Notes under the pieces: generated by a model
What the model was told of the DNA's origin: nothing
Database searches by the model: none
The model's input: the letters and a program-made list of their open reading frames with translations, nothing else
Made by a program: the position numbers and the translations under genes
NCBI GenBank assembly: GCA_022819645.1
Contig: JAJEGU010000063.1
Coordinates: forward strand, 1 to 44,132
DNA length: 44,132 nt
DNA from: Pseudomonadales bacterium
Lineage (GTDB): Bacteria > Pseudomonadota > Gammaproteobacteria > Pseudomonadales > Pseudohongiellaceae
Direction: 5' to 3'
Shown here: piece by piece, positions 7,196 through 27,415 of the stretch
How positions within the stretch are numbered: position 1 is the stretch's first letter
Layout: every line of letters starts with the position of its first letter

Positions 7196-8326
7196 GCAAA
7201 AATGAGAATCCATGCGGGGAACACGGCCCAAGCCAAGTCCAGATGAGCTCCGACTGGCATCGGTTCATCCCCGCGCATGCGGGGAACACGGTCCAGCCCC
7301 GAGATGATGTACGGCCTACCCCGGTTCATCCCCGCGCATGCGGGGAACACAACCAGCAAGCCTTGCAAAGATGCTCGTATTTCGGTTCATCCCCGCGCAT
7401 GCGGGGAACACCAACAACCTGCGTCGTCGAGGCTTTATCTAAGCGGTTCATCCCCGCGCATGCGGGGAACACACCAAACAAGTTGGACATCTCGTTCAAG
7501 ATGCCGGTTCATCCCCGCGCATGCGGGGAACACGGGACTCCCCGCAAAACGACCATCCAGGTTTTCGGTTCATCCCCGCGCATGCGGGGAACACGTCACT
7601 TCGACCGGGGATTTCCGCCTGTCGATCGGTTCATCCCCGCGCATGCGGGGAACACACCAGCCGCATCCGTTCAAATTCACCCCGACGCGGTTCATCCCCG
7701 CGCATGCGGGGAACACTTGACAACAGCGTGCTTGTCGCTGAAGACCCACGGTTCATCCCCGCGCATGCGGGGAACACCCAGTCAGCCGTACGCCATATAT
7801 CGGCGTGTCCGGTTCATCCCCGCGCATGCGGGGAACACAATTTGGTGAAATTGTTTTCCCGCCCGTCTTTCGGTTCATCCCCGCGCATGCGGGGAACACA
7901 TCCCTTTGAATTCCCGGCGGTGGATCACGTGCGGTTCATCCCCGCGCATGCGGGGAACACTGGTCGCGGAAGAATTTGTTCCGCGCCTTTACCGGTTCAT
8001 CCCCGCGCATGCGGGGAACACGTCTCCTGTGTGCCGGCATTCAGACGGTAGGCCGGTTCATCCCCGCGCATGCGGGGAACACAGGCTCATGCCCGCCCTT
8101 GCCAAATCGACCGCCGGTTCATCCCCGCGCATGCGGGGAACACCTGCCGGCTGATACCCGATACCCTGCCGACACCGGTTCATCCCCGCGCATGCGGGGA
8201 ACACTTCCTTGGGGTCTTTGCGCCCGCCTTTTGCGTCGGTTCATCCCCGCGCATGCGGGGAACACATATTCCCGGAGTTTTTCAATCACGTTTTTAACGG
8301 TTCATCCCCGCGCATGCGGGGAACAC
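7196..8326 (-). CRISPR. Type I-E CRISPR array, 18 identical repeats plus a terminal half-repeat
   Basis: Eighteen 29-bp repeats start at 7261 and recur exactly every 61 bp to 8298, with 17 spacers of 32 bp. In crRNA orientation (minus strand) the repeat has flank GTGTT, stem CCCCGC/GCGGGG with a 4-nt loop, and handle ATGAACCG, the type I-E form. Repeats look identical, which suggests recent activity. At the low-coordinate end a decayed repeat (7196-7224) keeps only CATGCGGGGAACAC and is separated by 36 rather than 32 bp. This marks it as the old, leader-distal end. The newest spacer is therefore at 8266-8297, next to cas2. Spacer targets cannot be judged from this window. Confidence 0.99.
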
Positions 8327-8473
8327 ACTTCCTACAAGCTACTGAAAAGACTAATCTTTTTCAGGTTGCGGAAAACTACCAATAAAATCCATAACTTAAA
8401 TTGTTAGAGAACGGGATCATATCTCAAGAGGCAATAGTTCCCGAAAGACTCACAAACACCTCCGCACTGTCAA
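8327..8473 (-). promoter_or_regulatory. CRISPR leader
   Basis: An AT-rich 147-bp stretch between the cas2 stop and the first repeat. A TATGAT -10-like box lies at 8416-8421 on the minus strand; I cannot assign a convincing -35. A hairpin, CTGAAAAGA (8342-8350) with TCTTTTTCAG (8355-8364), sits 16 bp from the first repeat. I did not find a clean IHF consensus. Confidence 0.7.
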
Positions 8474-9683
<1,210 letters not shown>

Positions 9684-9685
9684 GG

Positions 9686-10873
9686 TTATGCGGCTCCGAC
9701 ACCAAGCTGGAAAGAAACACGGACGAAAGAACTCTCCGTATCCTGTGCAAGGGTCGGTTCGGTATTGTTAAATTCGCTCATCTCCCTTTTCATTATGAGC
9801 CATCCCCTGCCCCGTCTTTCCATGAAGCCCATGCCGGCCATGTAGTGGCCCATGGAATCATTTCTGGCTCGCGGATTCGCTCCCGCCATGACTTGTTCGA
9901 CGGTTAGATGATTCGGAAGCGAACCTGGACTGGTTACGTCCACCCGATCGGAAAACACTTCAAACAAGATTGTCGATCCGATGATCGCGTAGTCACGATG
10001 AATGACGGCATTGACCAGCGCCTCGCGCACCGCATCGCGGGGCAATAAATAGCGATCCTCCCGCACAAGATTCTCATAGGACTCGAAGCGGCCCAGCCCG
10101 AGAAACCAGCCGACCGAGCGATCAACCTGTTCGCCTAGCCGACCTTTGGCCGTGGCGGCTTGCAGCACTTCCGAAGCACGGTCTGTCCCCGCGTATGCCA
10201 CGCACTCAATGCAGAAACTGCGCGTTTGAGCGTAGCGCTGGGGATGCTTGCCAAACGCCAAAACACCATACAGCGTTGCTCTCAATTCACCGCCGAGTTC
10301 GGCTAAAACTCCTCGATTTCGGAGGTCTTGCTCGCTGCTTGGCTGCGGTTCGGTCAAGGTGTCGAAATCGAGTTTGTCGAGGTAGGCAAGGAAAGCATCG
10401 TAGTCGATATGGGACGGCGGCGCGCCTTGTATCGCCCGTTCTTCCGTTAGCACGAATCCAAACGTATTGAAAAGTTCCTGGAGTTCCATCGAGGACGGCT
10501 CAACGCTGCTGCTCCCCCTTCTGATCCAGGTCCGACCGCGACAACGCAATGGCTCGAAACCGCGCTGGGAAGGAACTTCCACCCAGAACACGTGCCCCAC
10601 ATCATCGGAGTGGTGACCGATCCAAGCGGTTACGGGCTGGCTGCAACCCGTATGCAGGAAGGACGTCAGTCGTTCTTGAACCTTCTTGGGGTGCTCCCGA
10701 ACTCCGCATATGCGCCGTTGGTCGTCGACACCGAGGACGAGAACCCCGCCGCTGGAATTCGCAAACGCGCAGATGGTCTTCCCCAGCGCGGAAAGGCCAC
10801 CGAGGCCAAGTTTGAACTCCGTGCTCTGATCTTCGCCCGCGCCGATACGCCGTTCAATCGCTTTCCAGTCCAA
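9686..10873 (-). CDS. Schlafen/AlbA_2-domain protein inside the cas operon
   Basis: A 395-aa protein of the COG2865 type: an N-terminal AlbA_2 (Schlafen AlbA_2, formerly AAA_4) domain, then an HATPase_c_4 region. The N-terminus has GE-x4-EFK with E14 and E19, then GVDD (D50). In Schlafen RNases the catalytic acids fall in an E-x4-E plus later D arrangement, so this copy could be a nuclease (inference). 'WIRRGSSS' (116-123) closes the first domain and 'DAVREALVNAVIHRDY' (280-295) opens the second. It starts at TTG with AGGAG about 9 bases upstream and ends 2 bases before cas1. It could be a regulator, an RNase acting as a second defence layer, or an unrelated passenger. It is not a core type I-E gene. 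Confidence 0.88.
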   Translation of the reverse strand: MDWKAIERRIGAGEDQSTEFKLGLGGLSALGKTICAFANSSGGVLVLGVDDQRRICGVREHPKKVQERLTSFLHTGCSQPVTAWIGHHSDDVGHVFWVEVPSQRGFEPLRCRGRTWIRRGSSSVEPSSMELQELFNTFGFVLTEERAIQGAPPSHIDYDAFLAYLDKLDFDTLTEPQPSSEQDLRNRGVLAELGGELRATLYGVLAFGKHPQRYAQTRSFCIECVAYAGTDRASEVLQAATAKGRLGEQVDRSVGWFLGLGRFESYENLVREDRYLLPRDAVREALVNAVIHRDYAIIGSTILFEVFSDRVDVTSPGSLPNHLTVEQVMAGANPRARNDSMGHYMAGMGFMERRGRGWLIMKREMSEFNNTEPTLAQDTESSFVRVSFQLGVGAA

Positions 10874-10943: not shown

Positions 10944-11630
10944 CTACGCTCGCCGGATCAACATCAACCCACAACCATACGCCTTGGATGCCCCGAAACC
11001 TTTTGGCAAAACCGCAAGCAGCCGCTTCGGATCGGTAACGGTCAGCGCACCTTCGAAGTCTAGCGTGGAAAACGCCATCGCTGGGCCGTTCTTGCGCGCA
11101 ATGCGATGAGTGGAGTATCCGTCAACAGAAACGTCATCGATTTGAAAATCAAAGCCCGCCTTGTCGCCCTGCCGTCTAAGCCAATCGATCCCGCTGGTTC
11201 TCACTAGATCCAGTCTATGCCGCGCCCGTTTGCCTTGCGCGTAAGCGCGAAGTTGGTCCATGACAACGTCATGCTTGACGGAGCGTCCGCGCGCGTTGTC
11301 CCGGCGGCGAACGACGGGGTTGGCTCGCAAGGAAAATATCAGGGGATCCCCCGTTTCAAGTTCTGGGGCGAAGGGCTTCGGTTCCGCAATGTCAAACAAT
11401 CCGTGCGGGTCTCTCGGCGGCCGGAATGACAACAGCAGAAAAACACCAGGGTCTGTTTCCCGCCAGAGAAAGTCTCTTTGCCGCTCCGGGCCGTCGGCGA
11501 AAAGATACCATACCAAGTGATGCGCGGGCTGGCGGGACTCGGATTCGACTCCAGCACCGCCCAACAACAATGGAGCAAGCGCGGATAGCGATGCTTCTTT
11601 CTTCAGGCTGACTCGGGAGAAGTAAAGCAA
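10944..11630 (-). CDS. cas6e: Cascade crRNA-processing endonuclease Cas6e
   Basis: A 228-aa Cas6e (CasE/Cse3). It cuts the repeat at the 3' base of the hairpin, leaving the 8-nt ATGAACCG handle on the crRNA, and stays bound to the 3' hairpin in Cascade. Family marks are the N-terminal 'YFSRVSL', a 'HHLVWYLFADG' segment with the candidate catalytic His, and the glycine-rich C-terminal loop 'GFGASKAYGCGLMLIRR'. The TTG start has GGAGAT about 8 bases upstream and lies 3 bases after cas5e. It could also process the crRNA-like element at 15923-16005. Confidence 0.96.
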   Translation of the reverse strand: MLYFSRVSLKKEASLSALAPLLLGGAGVESESRQPAHHLVWYLFADGPERQRDFLWRETDPGVFLLLSFRPPRDPHGLFDIAEPKPFAPELETGDPLIFSLRANPVVRRRDNARGRSVKHDVVMDQLRAYAQGKRARHRLDLVRTSGIDWLRRQGDKAGFDFQIDDVSVDGYSTHRIARKNGPAMAFSTLDFEGALTVTDPKRLLAVLPKGFGASKAYGCGLMLIRRA

Positions 11631-11633
11631 GAC

Positions 11634-12365
11634 CTAATCTCCAGATTCGTTTACAAGCATAACCCGCTCCCAGCGGTCCATGAATTGCCAACGCGACCGG
11701 TTGGCGATCACATCGCGGCGCCGCTGGATTTGCGAATCCGGCACTTCAATTGGCACATCGGCATCAAAGGCGATCTCTGTCCCGAATGCGGCTCTCCGTC
11801 CCAAAGCATCCAAAACAATCTTTTCGTCCTCATTCGGCCCACGTTCGTTGAGCGCGTCCAAAAATGATTCGGCAATAACGATTTCCGGACGCAAGGGCAA
11901 TCCCAATGGCGCGGACTTGCGGCCCAAGTAAAGAACATATGCCGGATGATTCAAGCTCTCGGCCATGCCCTCCAAACGCCCATTCGCTCCGGCGCGCGAC
12001 CAAAGCACTACGGTATGAAAGGCATCAAACCGCCACTCACGAACAGAAAGCACGGTGTTGAGCCGGTCGTCTTGTAATTCTTCGCGCCGGGTCGCGTGGC
12101 GGCGCCCCTTTCGCGCCTGCGGCGCTTGCGCCGTCTGATAATCGATAAATGATCGCCCGGGCGCGTCTGTTCTGACAGCGAAGTGAAGCGACGACTCCAA
12201 TTCCATTTGCGCCTGCTCGTCTTCGCGGTCGATTCCCAGTGCCGCGGCTACCAAACCGAGTATGGCGGAACGCCCCGGCCTAGCCCAACTCATCCTCCGT
12301 TCGCCAACCGCGATTTCTCCGAAGGCGCCCATGGGAGCGTAAAGCGTAAATAACAGAAAACGCAT
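11634..12365 (-). CDS. cas5e: Cascade subunit Cas5e
   Basis: A 243-aa Cas5e (CasD), the Cascade subunit that grips the 5' handle of the crRNA and contacts Cse1. The N-terminal strand 'FLLFTLYAPMGAFGEIAVGERR' and 'PGRSAILGLVAAALGI' are the conserved Cas5 features, and 'SFIDYQTAQAP' matches the thumb region. An in-frame TTG lies one codon upstream; the ATG at 12365 is preferred. It follows cas7e with only a few bases between, in the canonical order. Confidence 0.96.
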   Translation of the reverse strand: MRFLLFTLYAPMGAFGEIAVGERRMSWARPGRSAILGLVAAALGIDREDEQAQMELESSLHFAVRTDAPGRSFIDYQTAQAPQARKGRRHATRREELQDDRLNTVLSVREWRFDAFHTVVLWSRAGANGRLEGMAESLNHPAYVLYLGRKSAPLGLPLRPEIVIAESFLDALNERGPNEDEKIVLDALGRRAAFGTEIAFDADVPIEVPDSQIQRRRDVIANRSRWQFMDRWERVMLVNESGD

Positions 12366-12369
12366 CAAT

Positions 12370-13422
12370 TCAGCTCTGCGCGAATTCGAGGAGTTCTTTC
12401 ATCGAACCCTGGCCCTTGCAGACATTCATTGTGTACGAAGCGTCCGTGGCAGGACCGTAGGAGGCATCAAGCTGATCTCGAAATTTTTCGAGTGACGTGA
12501 TCGAACTCGCGGCCTGATCTTCTCCTACAACCGGTTTCAGGAATGCCGCCGCCAGACTTCTAGGCTGGGCCGAACCTTTTTCCGCCAAGGCAAAAACAGC
12601 ACGTGCGCGGCTGGCGAAACTCGCCTGCTTGCCGCGTGGCGCGACGGTGGCCGCGGCTTCGGCAAGAGCGCACAAACTGGCGTCGCGAACCGCCCTGTTC
12701 TCATTCAAATTGCGCGACAGCAAATTCAAATCCACACAGACGTACAGATAGAAAACGCCTGCCCCGAATTCCTGCACTCCAACGAAACCCGCACCCGAGT
12801 CCTCCGGTTCGGATTGCGCCTTGAGGTCATCAACAGCCGTGTAATAGTCGTCCTCCGCGATGGCGCGATGTGTGGTTATGGCGTGGGCGACCTGCACGGC
12901 GGCTTCGCGGTTGAATTTCGGATTGTCGGCGAGCATGCGGCCGAACATGGCTATATCCGCCGCGGTATCCACACGATTCAGGATATCATCCGCCGTTGGC
13001 GCTTCGTAAGTGTCGTTCGCCAGCGCCGTATCGGCGAGCGCGAACGCTCGTTCCTGTTCTTCCGGAGAAACAAACGCCAATTGCTCGATAAACGTGGAAT
13101 TCGTGTCTTTTTCGCCTTTTATCTTGCCGAGAACTCCCGCGATTTTCCGGGCAATCTCTAACGCCCGATCTTCGGTCATGCCGCCCGCGGTCAAACGGTC
13201 GAACACACGCTCGCCGATTCTCTGCGTGCGCGCCGCCAAGTGTCCGTCGAGTCGTTCCGAGAATACGGTGGAAGTCCGCCAGGCACGCTTCAAACTCTGA
13301 GAAGAAATTCTGAGTCGCGGCACACCTCCGAATAAGACGCTCTTCGGCCGGCCCGTGTCATCCCGGTTCAAATTGGATGGGCCATATGCCGTAAGAAGAT
13401 GCAATTGCAAAAAATCAGTCAT
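12370..13422 (-). CDS. cas7e: Cascade backbone subunit Cas7e
   Basis: A 350-aa Cas7e (CasC/Cse4). Six copies form the helical Cascade backbone and kink the crRNA-DNA duplex at every sixth base. The start 'MTDFLQLHLLTAYGPSNLNRD' with 'RLRISSQSLKRAWRTS' is diagnostic. The frame is open for 24 more codons, but those residues are not conserved, and an AGGA lies upstream of this ATG. 'FGRMLADNPKFNREAAVQVAHAITTH' is a second conserved block. Confidence 0.97.
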   Translation of the reverse strand: MTDFLQLHLLTAYGPSNLNRDDTGRPKSVLFGGVPRLRISSQSLKRAWRTSTVFSERLDGHLAARTQRIGERVFDRLTAGGMTEDRALEIARKIAGVLGKIKGEKDTNSTFIEQLAFVSPEEQERAFALADTALANDTYEAPTADDILNRVDTAADIAMFGRMLADNPKFNREAAVQVAHAITTHRAIAEDDYYTAVDDLKAQSEPEDSGAGFVGVQEFGAGVFYLYVCVDLNLLSRNLNENRAVRDASLCALAEAAATVAPRGKQASFASRARAVFALAEKGSAQPRSLAAAFLKPVVGEDQAASSITSLEKFRDQLDASYGPATDASYTMNVCKGQGSMKELLEFAQS

Positions 13423-13450
13423 AAGAAAAATCCTGTCGCAAGGTTCGTGA

Positions 13451-13972
13451 TTATTCAGCGGCGGTTTCAGCGGGTGGAGTGGCGGAAGCGACACAGTAAT
13501 AGTCGAATATCCACTTCTCCTTCACAGAATCACCCCAACAGAGAATGGCGTCGGCCAGATCCGCCACGTTGGCCCGGCCCTTCATCTGGTGAACCAGCCG
13601 ACGCATCGAGTTCAAGAGCTCGTCGGGTTGAGATTGCAATAGCCGGCGAAATCGCGATTCGGATACCAGCGCGGACTGATCGTCGTCCAACGCGGACCGC
13701 CCCATGGCGCGGGCAACGTGCGTATCATCAGATTCCCGAACCCATGCCAATACACCCGCCAATATCGCTACACGATCTTTCCGGCTGCGGGGAAGTCTCG
13801 TCATCAGCCGCAACGCCTCCGGTTCCAGCATCACATCCACGGGCGTCGCGGCTCTGCGCAGCCTGGCCATGGCGGCTCTGGACGATCCTGATTGCCGGCC
13901 ATCCGAGGGATGCAATGCGCGCCACCACTCATATGCGATTTGACCACCGCGTGATGTCTGTTCTGAGGTCAT
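13451..13972 (-). CDS. cse2: Cascade small subunit Cse2
   Basis: A 173-aa Cse2 (CasB, Cas11e), an all-helical small subunit present twice in Cascade and stabilising the R-loop. The 'AYEWWRAL' opening and the arginine-rich 'AAMARLRRAATPVDVM' segment are typical. Its ATG overlaps the cse1 stop as ATGA, so the two are translationally coupled. Sequence conservation in this family is low; position and length support the call. Confidence 0.93.
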   Translation of the reverse strand: MTSEQTSRGGQIAYEWWRALHPSDGRQSGSSRAAMARLRRAATPVDVMLEPEALRLMTRLPRSRKDRVAILAGVLAWVRESDDTHVARAMGRSALDDDQSALVSESRFRRLLQSQPDELLNSMRRLVHQMKGRANVADLADAILCWGDSVKEKWIFDYYCVASATPPAETAAE

Positions 13973-15648
13973 GCCGCCTCCGATTTGCCGATTCTCCGCC
14001 GAATTGTATCCGGGGAGGGAATTTCAAGATCGCTATCAAAAAGGGATTTGCCAGATTTACCGCCGCCCCGCAAAGTTATCGCCAATTGAAAACGCGCCTT
14101 TACGTGGCGATGCATGTCCCGGTCCTCCAAACCAACGCCGGGAGCGTGTTCATCGAATAGACGCAATGCCGCGGTTCTCATAACTTGCGCCCAATCTCCT
14201 CTTGCCTCCGCAGTTCGATCCTCAACGTCGCTATTGGAATTGATCTGATCGATTGCCACGCGAAGCGCGGAATAAAACTCACCTTCGGTTTCGCGAAAGA
14301 ATTTCTCTCCGATGAAACCGTAGTCGCCCGCAGCGTCCCTCGGTCTGTCGAACAGCGCGGATTTTATCGCACCAATCAACAGACGACTAACCGTATTGGC
14401 TCCGGTCACGGTCCTCTGGATAAAGCCATCCAGATATTCACGAGATTCCCCGGCGACCACCCAAAGCGGCATTTCTCCTTCAATCCACGCGCGAGCCTTC
14501 ATGTTGTCCATGTCGTAACCGAAAACAAGGAACCGGGACTCGCTGGGACCCGCGACCTCCGCTCGCTCCCCATTCCTCCAGTGGCTCAATACTTTCGCGG
14601 TCCGTCGCATCTTGTCCCGGGGATCAACAACAAGGCCCAGGCACAATCGATAGTTCAACCCGCCCGGTTTTGGATGCACCGGCAGCCAAACCGTTTCCTT
14701 CGGATTTTGCCGATAATAGGGACTCAACGGATGCTCGAATCCATCCGAATAATTGGTCCCGTAGTTCCTGGTCCGGTAGTTTCCCGCGACTACAGGGTCG
14801 CTGGCGCCGGTCAGGCCACAATTCCGTCCCGCCGCCTCTTCAAAATCAACTCTAATTCGCCGAGGCATGCCCCAATAGACTTGCAGCGGGTTAACGTCAC
14901 GCGGGGTTGTCTCGCGCCCACCGGCTTTCGGATCGGAAACTCGAGTGTGCGTTAGCCAAGGAAAGATACTTCGATAATCTTCGAACGAATAGTCGCCGTC
15001 AGCCCGTGCATTAATCTGGTCAACGGTCTCCACGTTCGGCCAAAGTCGACCCCAAAGCGTGGGGTCGTTGCCGGGACGCTCCGCGCTAACCAGAGTCGTC
15101 ATCGGGCCGCCGCCCCGTATCGAGGTTCTATGCCCCGCACCACCAGAGGGAGCGAACGCGTTCAATGTGAACAGCGCCATGGCCGTTGCCGCGCGCGAAA
15201 GAACGGGAATACCCCCGCGTTTAACGAATAGGTCCGAATTCTTGCGAAGAGTCTGCGCACCGGGCGTTTCGATCAGAAGTGCCGAGATTGACTCCGTTTT
15301 CGCATTTTCGAGCGGATCGAAGTCCTGCATGAACCTTGGTCTGTCGCCATCCAGATCAAATGCATGAGCTACCGCGCCAAACCGCCGCCGAAGCACTACG
15401 GACGCCGGCGGCGAATTCCACCACTCGCCCCACTCGTCTTCAGCCTGGGGAGTTGCCGCCGTGGACAACAGGCCGATCAGAAATTCATGCGCGGCGCCGT
15501 TGAAGTCCGGCCGAGGCCAAGCAAACGCAACGAACGGGTCGGAATCGAATCCTTCCGCAATCCGCCATGGCTCGATGAATTCGACTACTCCGCTTCGCCG
15601 CCGAACCGGAAGCCAAGGATCGCTAATCAGATTGAATGATTTACGCAT
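13969..15648 (-). CDS. cse1: Cascade large subunit Cse1 (Cas8e)
   Basis: A 559-aa Cse1 (CasA). It recognises the PAM, loads target DNA and recruits Cas3. The opening 'FNLISDPWLPVRRRSG' is diagnostic; 'AGHRTSIRGGGPMTTLV' and 'PLQVYWGMPRRIRVDF' are further conserved blocks. An AAGGA lies very close to the ATG, and a short ORF ends 10 bases upstream, so translation may be coupled to that ORF. It is the first core Cascade gene after the control region at 15851-16018. Confidence 0.97.
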   Translation of the reverse strand: MRKSFNLISDPWLPVRRRSGVVEFIEPWRIAEGFDSDPFVAFAWPRPDFNGAAHEFLIGLLSTAATPQAEDEWGEWWNSPPASVVLRRRFGAVAHAFDLDGDRPRFMQDFDPLENAKTESISALLIETPGAQTLRKNSDLFVKRGGIPVLSRAATAMALFTLNAFAPSGGAGHRTSIRGGGPMTTLVSAERPGNDPTLWGRLWPNVETVDQINARADGDYSFEDYRSIFPWLTHTRVSDPKAGGRETTPRDVNPLQVYWGMPRRIRVDFEEAAGRNCGLTGASDPVVAGNYRTRNYGTNYSDGFEHPLSPYYRQNPKETVWLPVHPKPGGLNYRLCLGLVVDPRDKMRRTAKVLSHWRNGERAEVAGPSESRFLVFGYDMDNMKARAWIEGEMPLWVVAGESREYLDGFIQRTVTGANTVSRLLIGAIKSALFDRPRDAAGDYGFIGEKFFRETEGEFYSALRVAIDQINSNSDVEDRTAEARGDWAQVMRTAALRLFDEHAPGVGLEDRDMHRHVKARFQLAITLRGGGKSGKSLFDSDLEIPSPDTIRRRIGKSEAA

Positions 15649-15658
15649 ATTCCTTGGC

Positions 15659-15850
15659 TTACACGCCCCACTTGGCCTCGATCACTTCCTCGATGCATTC
15701 TGTTTGGCGCACAATTCTCGTAACGATACGCAGGCTGTTTCGTTGAGTTCGCTCATCTTTCCTCCCGCTACCATCTATCGAGCTTGTCGCACCCATACGT
15801 TTTTCGATCATTTCGAGCTTGCTTGGCAAGCGAGTATTTTTTTCTGACAT
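15659..15850 (-). CDS. Small ORF of unknown function leading the Cascade operon
   Basis: A 63-codon ORF whose ATG has a GGAG ribosome site 9 bases upstream (CGGAGAC). It ends 10 bases before cse1. The product is charged: 'MSEKNTRLPSKLEMIEKR', a small polar stretch, then 'TQRNSLRIVTRIVRQTECIE' and an EAKWGV tail. I recognise no family. Because it is the first ORF behind the promoter matched by the crRNA-like element, it could be a leader peptide, a new accessory protein, or a CreT-like toxin. Nothing in the sequence decides this. Codon use includes AGG, AGA and CGA arginines and is less GC-rich than cse1. Confidence 0.5.
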   Translation of the reverse strand: MSEKNTRLPSKLEMIEKRMGATSSIDGSGRKDERTQRNSLRIVTRIVRQTECIEEVIEAKWGV

Positions 15851-15879: not shown

Positions 15880-15908
15880 AATACTGTACATTGACTCAAA
15901 TGAGTCAA
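15880..15908 (-). promoter_or_regulatory. Putative Cascade-operon promoter with palindromic operator
   Basis: On the minus strand TTGACT (15908-15903) is a near-consensus -35. The best -10 at 16-17 bp is poor (CAGTAT or AGTATT, near 15881-15885), as in a tightly controlled promoter. The -35 is part of a palindrome, TTGACTC and GAGTCAA around 4 bp (15891-15908), which looks like an operator. A third GAGTCAAC lies at 15952-15959. The short ORF and Cascade genes lie downstream. Confidence 0.5.
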
Positions 15909-15922
15909 CATCAAACATTACT
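15902..15922 (-). other. Candidate protospacer of the crRNA-like element, with AAG PAM
   Basis: Read on the minus strand from 15922 to 15902, this 21-mer matches the pseudo-spacer (15972-15952) at 16 positions. Mismatches are at guide positions 3, 6, 8, 12 and 13, and the last eight bases, GTTGACTC, are identical. The three bases 5' of it (15925-15923) read AAG, the best-known type I-E PAM. It covers the -35 hexamer of the putative Cascade promoter. Confidence 0.6.
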
Positions 15923-16005
15923 CTTATCATCCTCGCATTGGCAAGGAACACGAGTCAACTGCAATCCTTGCTCGGTCCATCCCCGATCTCCCAATCGGGG
16001 AACCC
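15923..16005 (-). ncRNA. crRNA-like RNA gene: two degenerate CRISPR repeats around a 21-nt pseudo-spacer
   Basis: On the minus strand the order is repeat-like B (16005-15973), a 21-nt insert (15972-15952), then repeat-like A (15951-15923). B has flank GGGTT, stem CCCCGAT/ATCGGGG with a 6-nt loop, and handle ATGGACCG (7 of 8 as in the array). A has flank GTGTT, stem CCTTGC/GCGAGG with a 4-nt loop, and tail ATGATAAG. A matches the array repeat at 19 of 29 positions, and its stem still pairs fully, with one G-U. Both keep the 5-nt-flank, hairpin and 8-nt-tail geometry needed by Cas6e. The real array is 7.6 kb away. A dedicated promoter would start at B's first base. This is the architecture of CreR or CreA RNAs; the function is inferred. 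Confidence 0.75.
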
Positions 16006-16010
16006 TTCAA

Positions 16011-16038
16011 ATAATAGGTCATGCGGGCGAAATTTCAA
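16011..16038 (-). promoter_or_regulatory. Sigma-70 promoter of the crRNA-like RNA
   Basis: On the minus strand TTGAAA (16038-16033, 5 of 6 consensus) and TATTAT (16016-16011, 5 of 6) are spaced by 16 bp. Expected initiation, 6-7 bases past the -10, is at about 16005-16004, exactly the first bases of repeat-like B. The -35 lies within the last codons of cas3. Confidence 0.65.
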
Positions 16039-18742
16039 GCCCGCGGGTGGCATTGTAGCTGACCTGTATTTCGCCATTTGGTGAATTCGGCGATTTTGCC
16101 AATCCCCGCCAGTTTCCCCCGGAGTCGGTTGCTCGCAGCAAAACGAGGAACTTTTCCGCGTCGAATCTGGTCCATCCGGATTTGGCCTGCTCGGCTTTTT
16201 CCAAGTATTCGGAAGGCACCGCCTCGCCACCCACTCGATTGGCGGAGACATTCACTTCGCTGAGACGCCAAGCCTTCCTGTCTTCCACCTGATTTTCGGA
16301 TGCCTGATGACAGGCATAGGGTTTGATGTCGCCATCTTCGATTACCGCAAGGCGAAGCGTTACCTGCGGCAGGTCGTTAAGCCGGGTGGAAGTTCGGTGA
16401 TCGCTGTCCCACGGGGCACCGTCCCTGATGTATCCGTTTTGCAGGGCGAGCAAGTTCATGCCCGCGACCCCTTGCTCCGCACCGGCCCTGCCATGCGCTT
16501 CCCAGAAACACGATTGCAATCCTTCAGGCACATCCGAATCGGCATCGCCTCCATAAACCGCCTCGATGATATCCCTGAGTTCCGCCGGACTGTCAATAAC
16601 GCCGCGCTCCTCAAGAACCCGTGCGGTCAGCCAAATTCGGGCATGGTTTTTATATACATAAGCCGCTTTTGGAAAAGCGTCGCTAAACCACGTCTCGCCC
16701 GCGTCCGCAGTCGGCTCCGGACCAACGACTAATAGTTCCGGCCGCCCCGAGCGTCGGCGAAAGCCGTGCCGCCAGAGTCGTCCGGCCCGCTGGACCACAA
16801 GATCAATCGGCGCGAGGTCGGTAATCATCGCGTCGAAATCCAGATCCAATGATTGCTCGACCACCTGCGTGGCTACCAGTACTTGTTGGCGCCGATCTGA
16901 GTCTTTGCTTGCTTTGCCGAACATCTTGATGAACCGCCGTTCAAGCCGCAATCGGTCACATAACGCATACTGCGCATGAAACAGGTGCGCTTCGACATCG
17001 CGGCCGACCAACTCCCGATGCGCTTCCATCGCGTCATCCACTGTGTTGCGTATGTACAGCACGGCCCTTCCCGCCTGAGCCTCCCGCGCCGCCTCGATGC
17101 ATGCTTCCGTCGCGGTTCGGAGAAAACGGATCGGGAGACGCCTCGCCCGGCCCGGCATGCCCGCGATTGGCGTGGCCATCGTTGAGGCTTTAGACCAGAC
17201 CGTTGCCATTGGATACCCCATGCCATGACCGCGATAATCCGTTTCCATTCCCGCGCCTTTGGCGAATGCCGCCGTCAGTTTTTCGCGAATGCTCAATGGC
17301 AGAGTCGCGGACAGTAAAACGGTCGAACCACCCAGCCCGGCTTGAAACTCGATCAGCCGCTCCATTTCCCGCCGCATATAGGCATCGCAAGCATGAACCT
17401 CGTCAAGTATCAGCACCCGCCGCATAAGGCCAAGCAGCCGCAAGGACTGGTGCTTGCTTGGAAGAACCGCCAGCAACGCCTGATCGATGCTGCCCGCACC
17501 CACGTCAGCCAGAAACGCGCGCCTGCGGTCGTCAGCGATCCATTCAGCGCAGGCGGCTGAAGCCGTGGTAGCTGATTCGTCTTCTCCATCGCGCAAATTC
17601 GCATACGAGCTTTCGCGCCGGCCGGCGCGCATGACAGCATCCCGAAAACCTTGGTGCAGGTCTTTTGCCCTGTGGGCCAACGCCAACGATGGCTTCGCAT
17701 CACTGGCGAAAAAACCGCGATAGCTTTCCGCGAGCCGGTCGAACATGGCGTTCGCCGTTGCCATGGTCGGCAGCGCGACATAGACTCCGCGGGCGTGGCT
17801 GGCCCGCATAAGGCGGTGGGCCAACATCAATGCCGCCTCGGTCTTGCCGCTGCCGGTTTCGTCTTCAATCAGAAACATTGCCGGAGCTGGCGGAATATCC
17901 ACTGTTTCAGCCCAATGCTGCATGGGGCTTGGGTGAGTTTTCGCGCCGAGCAGGTCTTTGTATGCGAATTGATTTGAAATCGTTGCGCTCAAGACACCAG
18001 ATTGCTCAACCGCCGCATCGGCTTTTGGTTGAATGTCTTCCCAATACTCGCGCAGTCCCATTTTCGGTTCCTGGTACGGGAACCAGTCCTGATTGGATCC
18101 TATCCAGTCCGCCAGCACCGCCAATCCCGCCACCGCATGGGACGCGCGTTTCGACTGATCGACACGCAATCCGCCCAATTCAGAAGGGAGGTTGAGCAGT
18201 TCGCGAATTTGTCTCGCAAATTCCCCGGCAGCCGCAATTCCGATACTTCCGTAGTCGATTTTCAAGCTGACCAGCGAATTTTCCGCATTTGTGGCCGGTG
18301 GGGCACCGTGATGTCCAGTGACCGCCGAGACTAACGGCGTCCAAGCGCGAGGGCTGGAAATCCGCGGCAATTGAAAAACTTCCGGGCAAACCTTGAACAT
18401 CCGCATGCCGCCCGCTCCATGGTCGTAACCATCGGGAAGTTTCGCGAGGTCACCATCGAAACTGTTGCGAAACAGTTCCGGAACCTTGGCCTGGAATCTT
18501 TGCGCGAACTTGCCGATATCGTGCGTACCAAGCAGATAGCACAAGACCGGCATGACATCCTCGCATCGCAACCCCGTCAACTCGGAAAATCGCTCTTGGA
18601 GCCCCTCGTCGCGGCGAAACAAGGCCCTTGCGGTCGCAGCCACATCCAGGGAATGGTAAGCCAATGGATGCCAAGAAGGGCCACGTGCAGGATCTCGGGG
18701 CTGCGCTTTGCCCCAAAATCGCATCAATTCCCGATTTTCCAT
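16019..18742 (-). CDS. cas3: CRISPR-associated helicase-nuclease Cas3
   Basis: A 907-aa type I-E Cas3, the nuclease-helicase recruited by Cascade to shred target DNA. The N-terminal HD nuclease has H25/H30 and H74-D75 (LGTHDIGKFA), the same numbering as E. coli. The SF2 helicase follows: Walker A DETGSGKT (294-301), DEVH (447-450), SATLP, and the late 'VVEQSLDLDFD' plus 'QRAGRLWRHG'. It is full length with all motifs. It begins 33 bases after the DUF2797 gene in the same direction and may be read from that operon. Its end carries the -35 box of the crRNA-like RNA. A 168-bp control region separates it from the rest of the locus. Confidence 0.97.
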   Translation of the reverse strand: MENRELMRFWGKAQPRDPARGPSWHPLAYHSLDVAATARALFRRDEGLQERFSELTGLRCEDVMPVLCYLLGTHDIGKFAQRFQAKVPELFRNSFDGDLAKLPDGYDHGAGGMRMFKVCPEVFQLPRISSPRAWTPLVSAVTGHHGAPPATNAENSLVSLKIDYGSIGIAAAGEFARQIRELLNLPSELGGLRVDQSKRASHAVAGLAVLADWIGSNQDWFPYQEPKMGLREYWEDIQPKADAAVEQSGVLSATISNQFAYKDLLGAKTHPSPMQHWAETVDIPPAPAMFLIEDETGSGKTEAALMLAHRLMRASHARGVYVALPTMATANAMFDRLAESYRGFFASDAKPSLALAHRAKDLHQGFRDAVMRAGRRESSYANLRDGEDESATTASAACAEWIADDRRRAFLADVGAGSIDQALLAVLPSKHQSLRLLGLMRRVLILDEVHACDAYMRREMERLIEFQAGLGGSTVLLSATLPLSIREKLTAAFAKGAGMETDYRGHGMGYPMATVWSKASTMATPIAGMPGRARRLPIRFLRTATEACIEAAREAQAGRAVLYIRNTVDDAMEAHRELVGRDVEAHLFHAQYALCDRLRLERRFIKMFGKASKDSDRRQQVLVATQVVEQSLDLDFDAMITDLAPIDLVVQRAGRLWRHGFRRRSGRPELLVVGPEPTADAGETWFSDAFPKAAYVYKNHARIWLTARVLEERGVIDSPAELRDIIEAVYGGDADSDVPEGLQSCFWEAHGRAGAEQGVAGMNLLALQNGYIRDGAPWDSDHRTSTRLNDLPQVTLRLAVIEDGDIKPYACHQASENQVEDRKAWRLSEVNVSANRVGGEAVPSEYLEKAEQAKSGWTRFDAEKFLVLLRATDSGGNWRGLAKSPNSPNGEIQVSYNATRGLEISPA

Positions 18743-26692: not shown

Positions 26693-27415
26693 TCACTGCA
26701 CGAAAAGCTGCACTTCTCTCATCAATTCGTCTTCGAAGGGTTCGTAAAAGCCTTCGAGTCGTGCGGCGCCCACCGCGTCGCGATAACGGACGAGCGATAT
26801 GCCGAGCGCGGCGGCGGAGACTACGATTTGGTCTCGCAGATCGTCGATGCGGTCGCTCATCGAGGCGATGTCGTCTCGCTTGGCCGCCGCTTCCTCGTCG
26901 GTAAGTTCATCTTCGGCGAGCGATCTTTCCTCCGCGGTTCTGCGGGTGCGAAGGTCATCGAGTTCTGCTCTCTGATTGCGAATGGAATCTGCGCTCAGCC
27001 GCAGATTGGAAAGTGAATTGTAGACGTCTCGCCCCAACTGGAATCCCTGCTGGAAGTCAGCCGCAAGCCCGGAAGGGCAATCGGCTTCGACACGAGCGCC
27101 TTCCCGGCCTTCGCGATAACCGTTGTCCCGGGTGCAATACAGCATCAGGCCGCTCTCACGGCCGGCGATATAAGCCTGAACATCCGGCACGACGCCATAG
27201 TCCGCGCAGTCGCGCCGATAATCGTCAAGCACATCAAGCCCCCTCCCCTGCTGGCCGTCGATTTCGCCAACAACGGTCCAGTTGGCATTCAGGCATTCTT
27301 CTTCCGACATCGAAGCGCAGCCGTGCAGCAAGACCGCAACCAGCAACCACAGCACCGACTTCCTGGCGAAATCGATACGTGAAGCCCGGCCACCAAATGT
27401 TGCATACTTGCGCAT
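26693..27415 (-). CDS. DUF2799-family lipoprotein
   Basis: A 240-aa predicted lipoprotein. After a basic N-terminus and the hydrophobic run 'SVLWLLVAVLLHGC', the Cys is the lipid site. The DUF2799 signature follows: 'SEEECLNANWTVVGEIDGQQG', 'YGVVPDVQAYIAGRESGL' and 'YCTRDNGYREGREG'. From about residue 145 a charged coiled coil extends ('RAELDDLRTRRTAEERSL'). The function is unknown. The start could also be 10 codons earlier (MNIQQ, 27445). It is divergent from the tannase-family gene with only a short gap, so the promoters overlap. Confidence 0.8.
   Translation of the reverse strand: MRKYATFGGRASRIDFARKSVLWLLVAVLLHGCASMSEEECLNANWTVVGEIDGQQGRGLDVLDDYRRDCADYGVVPDVQAYIAGRESGLMLYCTRDNGYREGREGARVEADCPSGLAADFQQGFQLGRDVYNSLSNLRLSADSIRNQRAELDDLRTRRTAEERSLAEDELTDEEAAAKRDDIASMSDRIDDLRDQIVVSAAALGISLVRYRDAVGAARLEGFYEPFEDELMREVQLFVQ

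Follow-up and report, generated by a model that had tools for sequence, protein, structure and literature searches.

CreR-guided autorepression is stated in a 2026 review to occur in types I-B, I-E and V-A (PMC13131331), and CreR is also described in a second source (PMC12737573). As described in these two accounts, CreR resides beside cas genes, is crRNA-like and carries a partial, PAM-flanked match to DNA that precedes cas genes. The element examined here, located between cas3 and cse1 of a type I-E locus, resembles CreR in all of these respects and differs in its seed, which matches at 8/10 positions. The class of the element is already known, as type I-E CreR is in print (PMC13131331).

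CreA RNAs offer a second comparison. Most creA genes are reported to consist of two degenerate repeats around a pseudo-spacer, and CreA pairs at positions 1-5 and 7-11 next to a PAM, with positions 6 and 12 being unimportant (PMC8501985). For the CreA of Halobacterium hubeiense, the same source reports that a change at any single one of the ten seed positions caused a loss of approximately 10^4-fold in an antitoxin assay, and the minimal match reported for this guide does not include the run of eight matches at positions 14-21 that is present in our element. The CreA RNAs of CreTA, as described from Haloarcula hispanica and H. hubeiense (type I-B), share with our element the two degenerate repeats, the PAM and the 1-5/7-11 pairing pattern. 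However, they employ a TTC PAM and a target at the creT promoter, whereas our element has AAG, a target downstream of the guide gene and no identified toxin. In the CrePA systems, which combine a CRISPR-repressed protein toxin with CreA, the target is again followed by a small open reading frame (ORF), although CreP is typically a KilA-N protein (PMC12737573) and the ORF in our locus lacks a Pfam match.

The window, which is the entire 44,132-nt stretch of DNA that was analysed, contains a minus-strand type I-E locus with the gene order cas3, cse1, cse2, cas7, cas5, cas6e, Schlafen AlbA_2/HATPase protein, cas1, cas2 and CRISPR array (Table 1). The gene for the protein with Schlafen AlbA_2 and HATPase_c_4 domains (9686-10873, minus strand) lies within the cas operon, flanked by cas6e and cas1. 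When up to three mismatches are allowed, the array repeat is found in the whole genome (97.7% complete) only as the 18 array copies. An earlier sequence-only reading had proposed that two diverged copies of this repeat lie in the gap between cas3 and cse1 and belong to a crRNA-like RNA gene. The coordinates, strand and counts for the repeats were re-derived and are correct, and a crRNA-like element is present, but the gap also holds a 63-codon ORF (15850-15659) directly before cse1. Similarly, the span of 15923 to 16005 proposed for the element includes both repeats but ends just before the decisive feature, a near-copy of the pseudo-spacer at 15922-15902. The characteristics of CreR are found here as two degenerate repeats of the resident array around a pseudo-spacer, a site between cas3 and cse1, and a 16/21 match with AAG at 15925-15902.

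Table 1. Features of the type I-E locus and of the candidate crRNA-like gene, with their positions in the window.
Feature	Position	Strand	Basis
cas3 (HD + helicase)	16019..18742	-	Pfam Cas3_HD, Cas3-like_C_2
Predicted promoter of crRNA-like gene, TTGAAA-16-TATTAT	16011..16038	-	10/12 consensus
Degenerate repeat copy B; would yield 5' handle AUGGACCG	15973..16005	-	19/21 template positions; 8-pair stem by script's count
21-nt pseudo-spacer AGCAAGGATTGCAGTTGACTC	15952..15972	-	Sequence
Degenerate repeat copy A; would yield 3' hairpin; AAG end (15925-15923) is putative PAM	15923..15951	-	Sequence, fold
Predicted Cascade target	15902..15922	-	16/21 match to pseudo-spacer; 15/18 leaving out positions 6, 12 and 18
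Perfect 18-nt palindrome TTGACTCATTTGAGTCAA containing -35-like TTGACT; weak partner CAGTAT at 15886-15881	15891..15908	-	Sequence; 8/12 promoter score
63-codon ORF between target and cse1	15659..15850	-	No Pfam family
cse1 (cas8e), first Cascade gene	13969..15648	-	Pfam CRISPR_Cse1
cse2, cas7, cas5, cas6e	10944..13972	-	Pfam
cas1, cas2	8474..9683	-	Pfam
CRISPR array: 18 perfect 29-nt repeats, 61-nt spacing; plus partial repeat near 7211	7261..8326	-	Sequence

Both copies read in the same direction as the 18 perfect array repeats. Copy B begins 13 nt past the cas3 stop codon and is separated by the pseudo-spacer from copy A. Its handle, ATGGACCG, retains 7/8 bases of the array's ATGAACCG, and its stem is CCCCGAT/ATCGGGG. 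Copy A agrees with the array repeat at 19/29 positions, a recount having given the same figure, and its stem (CCTTGC/GCGAGG) pairs throughout, with one G-U pair. When folded as a 96-nt strand both hairpins form, with an energy (-33.9 kcal/mol, z -3.2) that was equalled by one of 200 shuffles, and shuffling the 370-nt gap by mononucleotide 20,000 times never produced a repeat of the grade of copy B. The repeat pair exceeds chance. An ordinary CRISPR array was rejected as an identity for the element on account of the 19/29 agreement of copy A and a spacer of 21 nt versus 32 nt. An intrinsic terminator was rejected as well, since no T run follows either hairpin and the terminator-like sites in the scan occur only on the plus strand, at 15817-15835. 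A search of the gap against Rfam returned one match, to a mammalian lncRNA family at an E value of 0.41, which is far below the family cut-off and represents chance.

The 21 bases that follow copy A, AGTAATGTTTGATGTTGACTC, match the pseudo-spacer at 16/21 positions, with mismatches at 3, 6, 8, 12 and 13. They are preceded by AAG, the usual type I-E PAM, which forms the last three bases of copy A at the place where the array repeat ends in CCG. Among the 1131 AAG-flanked sites in the window, this target is the best both by total (15/18) and by seed (8/10). The gap has 13 AAG sites, at which none of 20,000 dinucleotide-shuffled spacers reached a 16/21 match; 23 of 20,000 reached it anywhere in the gap. 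Two other possible locations for a target were considered and rejected. A site at 27051 also matches at 16/21 positions, but has TCC at the PAM position. Genome-wide, AAGAGCAANGATTG occurs at 36 places when as many as two mismatches are tolerated, versus 16 for a reversed control, none of the 36 being perfect; the 36 include the pseudo-spacer itself and the site adjacent to copy A, as well as one single-mismatch place on contig C9. At the distal end of the target, TTGACTC forms the left arm of the 18-nt palindrome and is a candidate -35 box with a poor -10 partner (8/12). The palindrome, which overlaps the target, is also a possible binding site for a regulator.

It is the target, absent from the sequence-only reading, that distinguishes a regulator from a relic. 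The window element nevertheless fails the strict seed rule of CreA type, in which all of positions 1-5 and 7-11 are paired, because positions 3 and 8 are mismatched (8/10). That rule was derived from haloarchaeal CreA. Given the 8/10 seed, it is safer to say that the element works like a CreR than that it is a working CreR. The uninterrupted run of eight matches at positions 14-21 could, if anything can, offset the weak seed.

We consider it probable that positions 16005-15902 constitute a creR-type gene, and we predict that Cas6e cuts its RNA and that Cascade, loaded with it, binds the adjacent DNA and so lowers transcription of the small ORF and of the genes from cse1 to cas2. The repeats, the match and the AAG are all present in the DNA, and the same logic recurs in many other type I-E loci, as detailed below. 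From such features we infer transcription of the element, processing of its RNA, binding and repression, by the following predicted steps. Transcription would begin at the promoter within the end of cas3, with a predicted start near 16004 at the edge of copy B, or would arrive by read-through from cas3. Shuffled sequences contain on average 0.6 promoters of this quality per region, and the promoter is therefore weak evidence; its second hexamer is absent from the congeners discussed below. A similarly placed site (9/12) occurs in one more distant relative (L046), and none is found at 8/12 upstream of copy B in two others (L050 and L051). Cas6e would then cut both hairpins, and the loaded Cascade would bind 15925-15902, where it might cover the TTGACT box or act as a roadblock before the small ORF and cse1. 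The outcome would be negative feedback, in that free Cascade loads the guide and shuts off its own operon, with relief expected when array crRNAs or anti-CRISPR proteins use up Cascade.

To determine how widely such elements occur, we collected up to 1.5 kb of DNA upstream of cse1 for 106 regions, comprising 80 contig loci (the best 80 of 339 relatives), 25 order-level loci and the window. Five of these upstream regions were shorter, at 588-1043 nt (L105, L083, L117, L099 and L055). Three loci were dropped before counting, two for weak, partial cse1 genes (L036 and L037) and one for a CRISPR array directly upstream of cse1 (L062). The last two repeats of that array start 231 and 169 nt before cse1 and are degenerate, which offers a possible picture of how such elements originate. 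The 105 regions that remain without L062 contain 28 candidate handle-bearing repeats, with differing downstream spacers, at 27 loci. A candidate passed if the first 17 bases after its handle had an AAG-flanked partner no more than 700 nt upstream of cse1 with at least 12/15 matches, positions 6 and 12 being unscored. Such a target was found for 22/28 candidates, or 21/27 when the window is set aside because it had suggested the idea, compared with 0.16% of random 17-mers from the same regions. The six that failed are in L034, L046, L056, L075 (one of its two), L097 and L112, and in L046, L097 and L112 the target is flanked by AAA. An additional element, in L054, lies about 900 nt upstream and thus beyond the 700-nt limit of the test.

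A looser first pass, with an optional PAM and a lower score, was of no use as a test, given that 190/490 shuffled spacers passed it. Since the AAG-only 12/15 rule was fixed after this pass on the same loci, the out-of-sample check is a later sample of 20 regions, made up of 19 of 25 new loci (L141-L145 and L147 were dropped as weak or partial) and one from a search of 137 genomes of the family. It yielded ten candidates, of which eight passed (the failures being L130 and L138); for spacers not seen before, 6/7 passed, two of these being related and from one genome. The sequence-only reading had placed the element among the two-repeat, crRNA-like units of the CreR/CreA kind beside cas genes, and this assignment is now backed by the self-adjacent target and by the same logic in other type I-E gaps.

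A set of 30 elements, including the window, was assembled by allowing AAG or AAA and removing near-copies, with the related spacers of L097/L117 and L146/L148 remaining. The preponderance of AAG among census targets is partly built in, as the main test demanded it. Matches at positions 1 to 17 in this set number 30, 30, 28, 30, 30, 4, 30, 29, 25, 28, 26, 4, 29, 28, 21, 19 and 14. Choosing targets by total score raises the counts at scored positions and leaves those at positions 6 and 12 unaffected. The dips at these two positions match the pattern of Cascade-bound guides and follow the same 1-5/7-11 rule that was measured for CreA (PMC8501985). With 4/30 matches each, positions 6 and 12 fall under the 25% that free drift would give, and mismatch may be favoured there, for instance as a curb on recombination of the guide with its target. 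Copy B has a stem that varies in sequence yet pairs, as at pair 4 (CG 16, AT 5, TG 4, TA 3 and GT 2; n=30), whereas pairs 5 and 6 are often non-standard at the columns counted (n=30). Among the 22 passing elements, the seed matches at 10/10 positions in 12, at 9/10 in eight and at 8/10 in two, L030 and the window.

The elements occur in two arrangements. In the first, seen in the window, in L013/L050 (whose cse1 and spacer are identical), in L046 and in L051, the element has the same reading direction as cse1, and its target directly adjoins copy A, 5-13 nt past the hairpin. The spacers of L013/L050, L046 and L051 are unrelated, and each matches the DNA beside its own copy A, so that spacer and target co-vary. 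Copy B starts 5 nt after the cas3 stop codon in L013/L050 and 17 nt after it in L046, and in L051 a gene (7934-9310) that appears by eye to be transposase-like intervenes between cas3 and the element. Across the rest of the 30-element set, L075 excepted, the element reads away from cse1, and its target resides on the cse1 side of copy B, 54-184 nt beyond it, or on the opposite strand. The passing element of L075 has its target 252 nt off and is left out of the count of the first arrangement. A tree of 52 selected cse1 proteins confines the first arrangement to the 18-row group that holds the window (5/18 rows) and the second to the remaining 34 rows (26/34), a split that is supported 100/100.

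Automatic detection of copy A gave spacer lengths for 31 elements, their kinship unaccounted for, of 19 (1), 20 (7), 21 (7), 26 (1), 32 (11), 33 (2) and 34 (2) nt. Pseudo-spacers thus come in two lengths, of about 20-21 and 32-34 nt, which is possibly a new regularity. The short class, to which the 21 nt of the window belongs, is about 12 nt below the array spacer length, which corresponds to two Cas7 steps of 6 nt each. For type I-F1, spacer length is reported to follow L = 6N - 4, whereby a 20-nt spacer would fit four Cas7 subunits (PMC7296934); the shortened crRNAs of type I Cascades in that account are engineered, whereas the short lengths seen here are natural. Truncating the type I-E crRNA by 6 or 12 nt is reported to slow the action of Cas3 without abolishing it (PMC7296934), and partial pairing must therefore matter too. 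In type I-B, spacers of 21-24 bp are reported to repress strongly and those of 20 bp weakly, with no interference or priming (PMC10989794). A short guide combined with partial pairing would be expected to favour binding over cutting by Cas3.

Close relatives reveal a patchy distribution. Among 84 genomes of the genus, four match this stretch, including that of the window. The other three, G018 (cse1 99%), G030 (91%) and G033 (89%), lack about 172 nt containing the -10 box, both repeats, the target and the start site of the ORF, and still have the end of cas3, cse1 and arrays. The sequence-only reading had named related loci without the hairpins as evidence against itself, and these three are such loci; the more distant relatives L050/L013, L046 and L051, however, keep the element at the same place and in the same orientation, which indicates patchy distribution and not refutation. 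Moreover, the window and G018 are sisters on the cse1 tree, and G018 and G033 have an identical short junction, so that exchange between lineages, or gain in the window, is likelier than repeated identical loss.

The same observations bear on whether the element is instead a decaying relic, formerly a CreR, that is now too mismatched to hold Cascade and is heading for the loss seen in the congeners. Its seed mismatches at positions 3 and 8 are among the poorest of the 22, the module is missing from three congeners, two of them with the identical junction, and the downstream ORF shows no purifying selection. Nevertheless, the two hairpins are intact, as are the handle, the AAG and the 8-base PAM-distal match, and there are only three mismatches outside the free positions 6 and 12, a state that free drift is not expected to preserve for long. 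We consider decay unlikely, though it is the strongest competitor of a creR-type gene.

The small ORF raises the question of what is repressed. Compared with G033, it has a dN of 0.088 and a dS of 0.096, with no detectable purifying selection, and the possibility that it is a conserved cas gene was rejected, as dN approximates dS and only three protein clusters were found, its own included. An 82% relative on a contig of 3,510,664 bases (P0003) starts with MPEKNTR, like the MSEKNTR of the window and not the MTQRNTR of G018 and G033, and judging from this sequence the P0003 genome may carry the cassette. Short ORFs precede cse1 elsewhere as well. In L006 and L007 these encode similar, membrane-like peptides (MQIEKLVAELNKLSPSSSALVAL... 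and MDLITKLTDAVNRLSPSSSALVAL...) that look like candidate Cascade-repressed toxins, and in L006 the spacer of a repeat-like element matches DNA before the peptide (AAG, 12/15). Similar-looking short ORFs were noted by eye in L021 and L112.

These ORFs would be compatible with an arrangement of CreA type, in which Cascade and the RNA would repress a toxin, encoded by the 63-codon ORF or itself an RNA, and thereby make Cascade addictive or punish phages that carry anti-CRISPRs. The target lies just upstream of the small ORF, the membrane-peptide-like ORFs of L006, L007, L021 and L112, as judged by eye, occupy the same spot, and CreTA and CrePA are published precedents (PMC8501985, PMC12737573). 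However, congeners that lack the module keep the ORF, opened by an ATG that overlaps the cas3 stop codon (ATGA), with G030 having lost more of it, and the ORF itself combines near-equal dN and dS with no Pfam match and no membrane segment by eye. Because cse1 directly follows the ORF, Cascade itself is the main downstream gene, which also argues against an antitoxin, and we regard this role as improbable. Least credible of all is the reading that a repeat-spacer unit was duplicated in tandem where an array once ended and plays no part in regulation, the target being only the second copy of the spacer. The order B-S-A-S' with S and S' 16/21 alike is what such a duplication would leave. However, unrelated loci match mostly in PAM-proximal bases with gaps at 6 and 12, divergently oriented loci have their target beyond the far side of copy B or on the opposite strand, and the canonical repeat end CCG is replaced by AAG in the window.

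A creR-type gene remains our preferred reading, and a wider proposal can be built upon it, which we advance tentatively as possible but open to doubt. The window element might represent a cis-closed CreR, a single cassette of approximately 170 nt by the end of cas3 that unites guide, PAM and target, the PAM being provided or adjoined by the second repeat. Type I-E guides would then come in two quantised lengths, and the short one, 12 nt or two Cas7 steps below array spacers, could define a natural class of short Cascades that bind without destroying their own locus. Such a cassette might be gained and lost among cas loci that are otherwise nearly identical, and thereby switch the operon from coupled to self-limited expression and back.

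If the creR-type reading is true, these type I-E systems carry their own thermostat, in effect a self-directed CRISPR with a single spacer. The census provides rules by which further examples can be sought, namely the handle, a spacer of 20-21 or 32-34 nt, a nearby AAG target and free positions 6 and 12, and its elements form a natural set for asking why two discrete guide lengths evolved. The window and G018, whose cas loci are near-identical with and without the cassette, offer a ready-made comparison.
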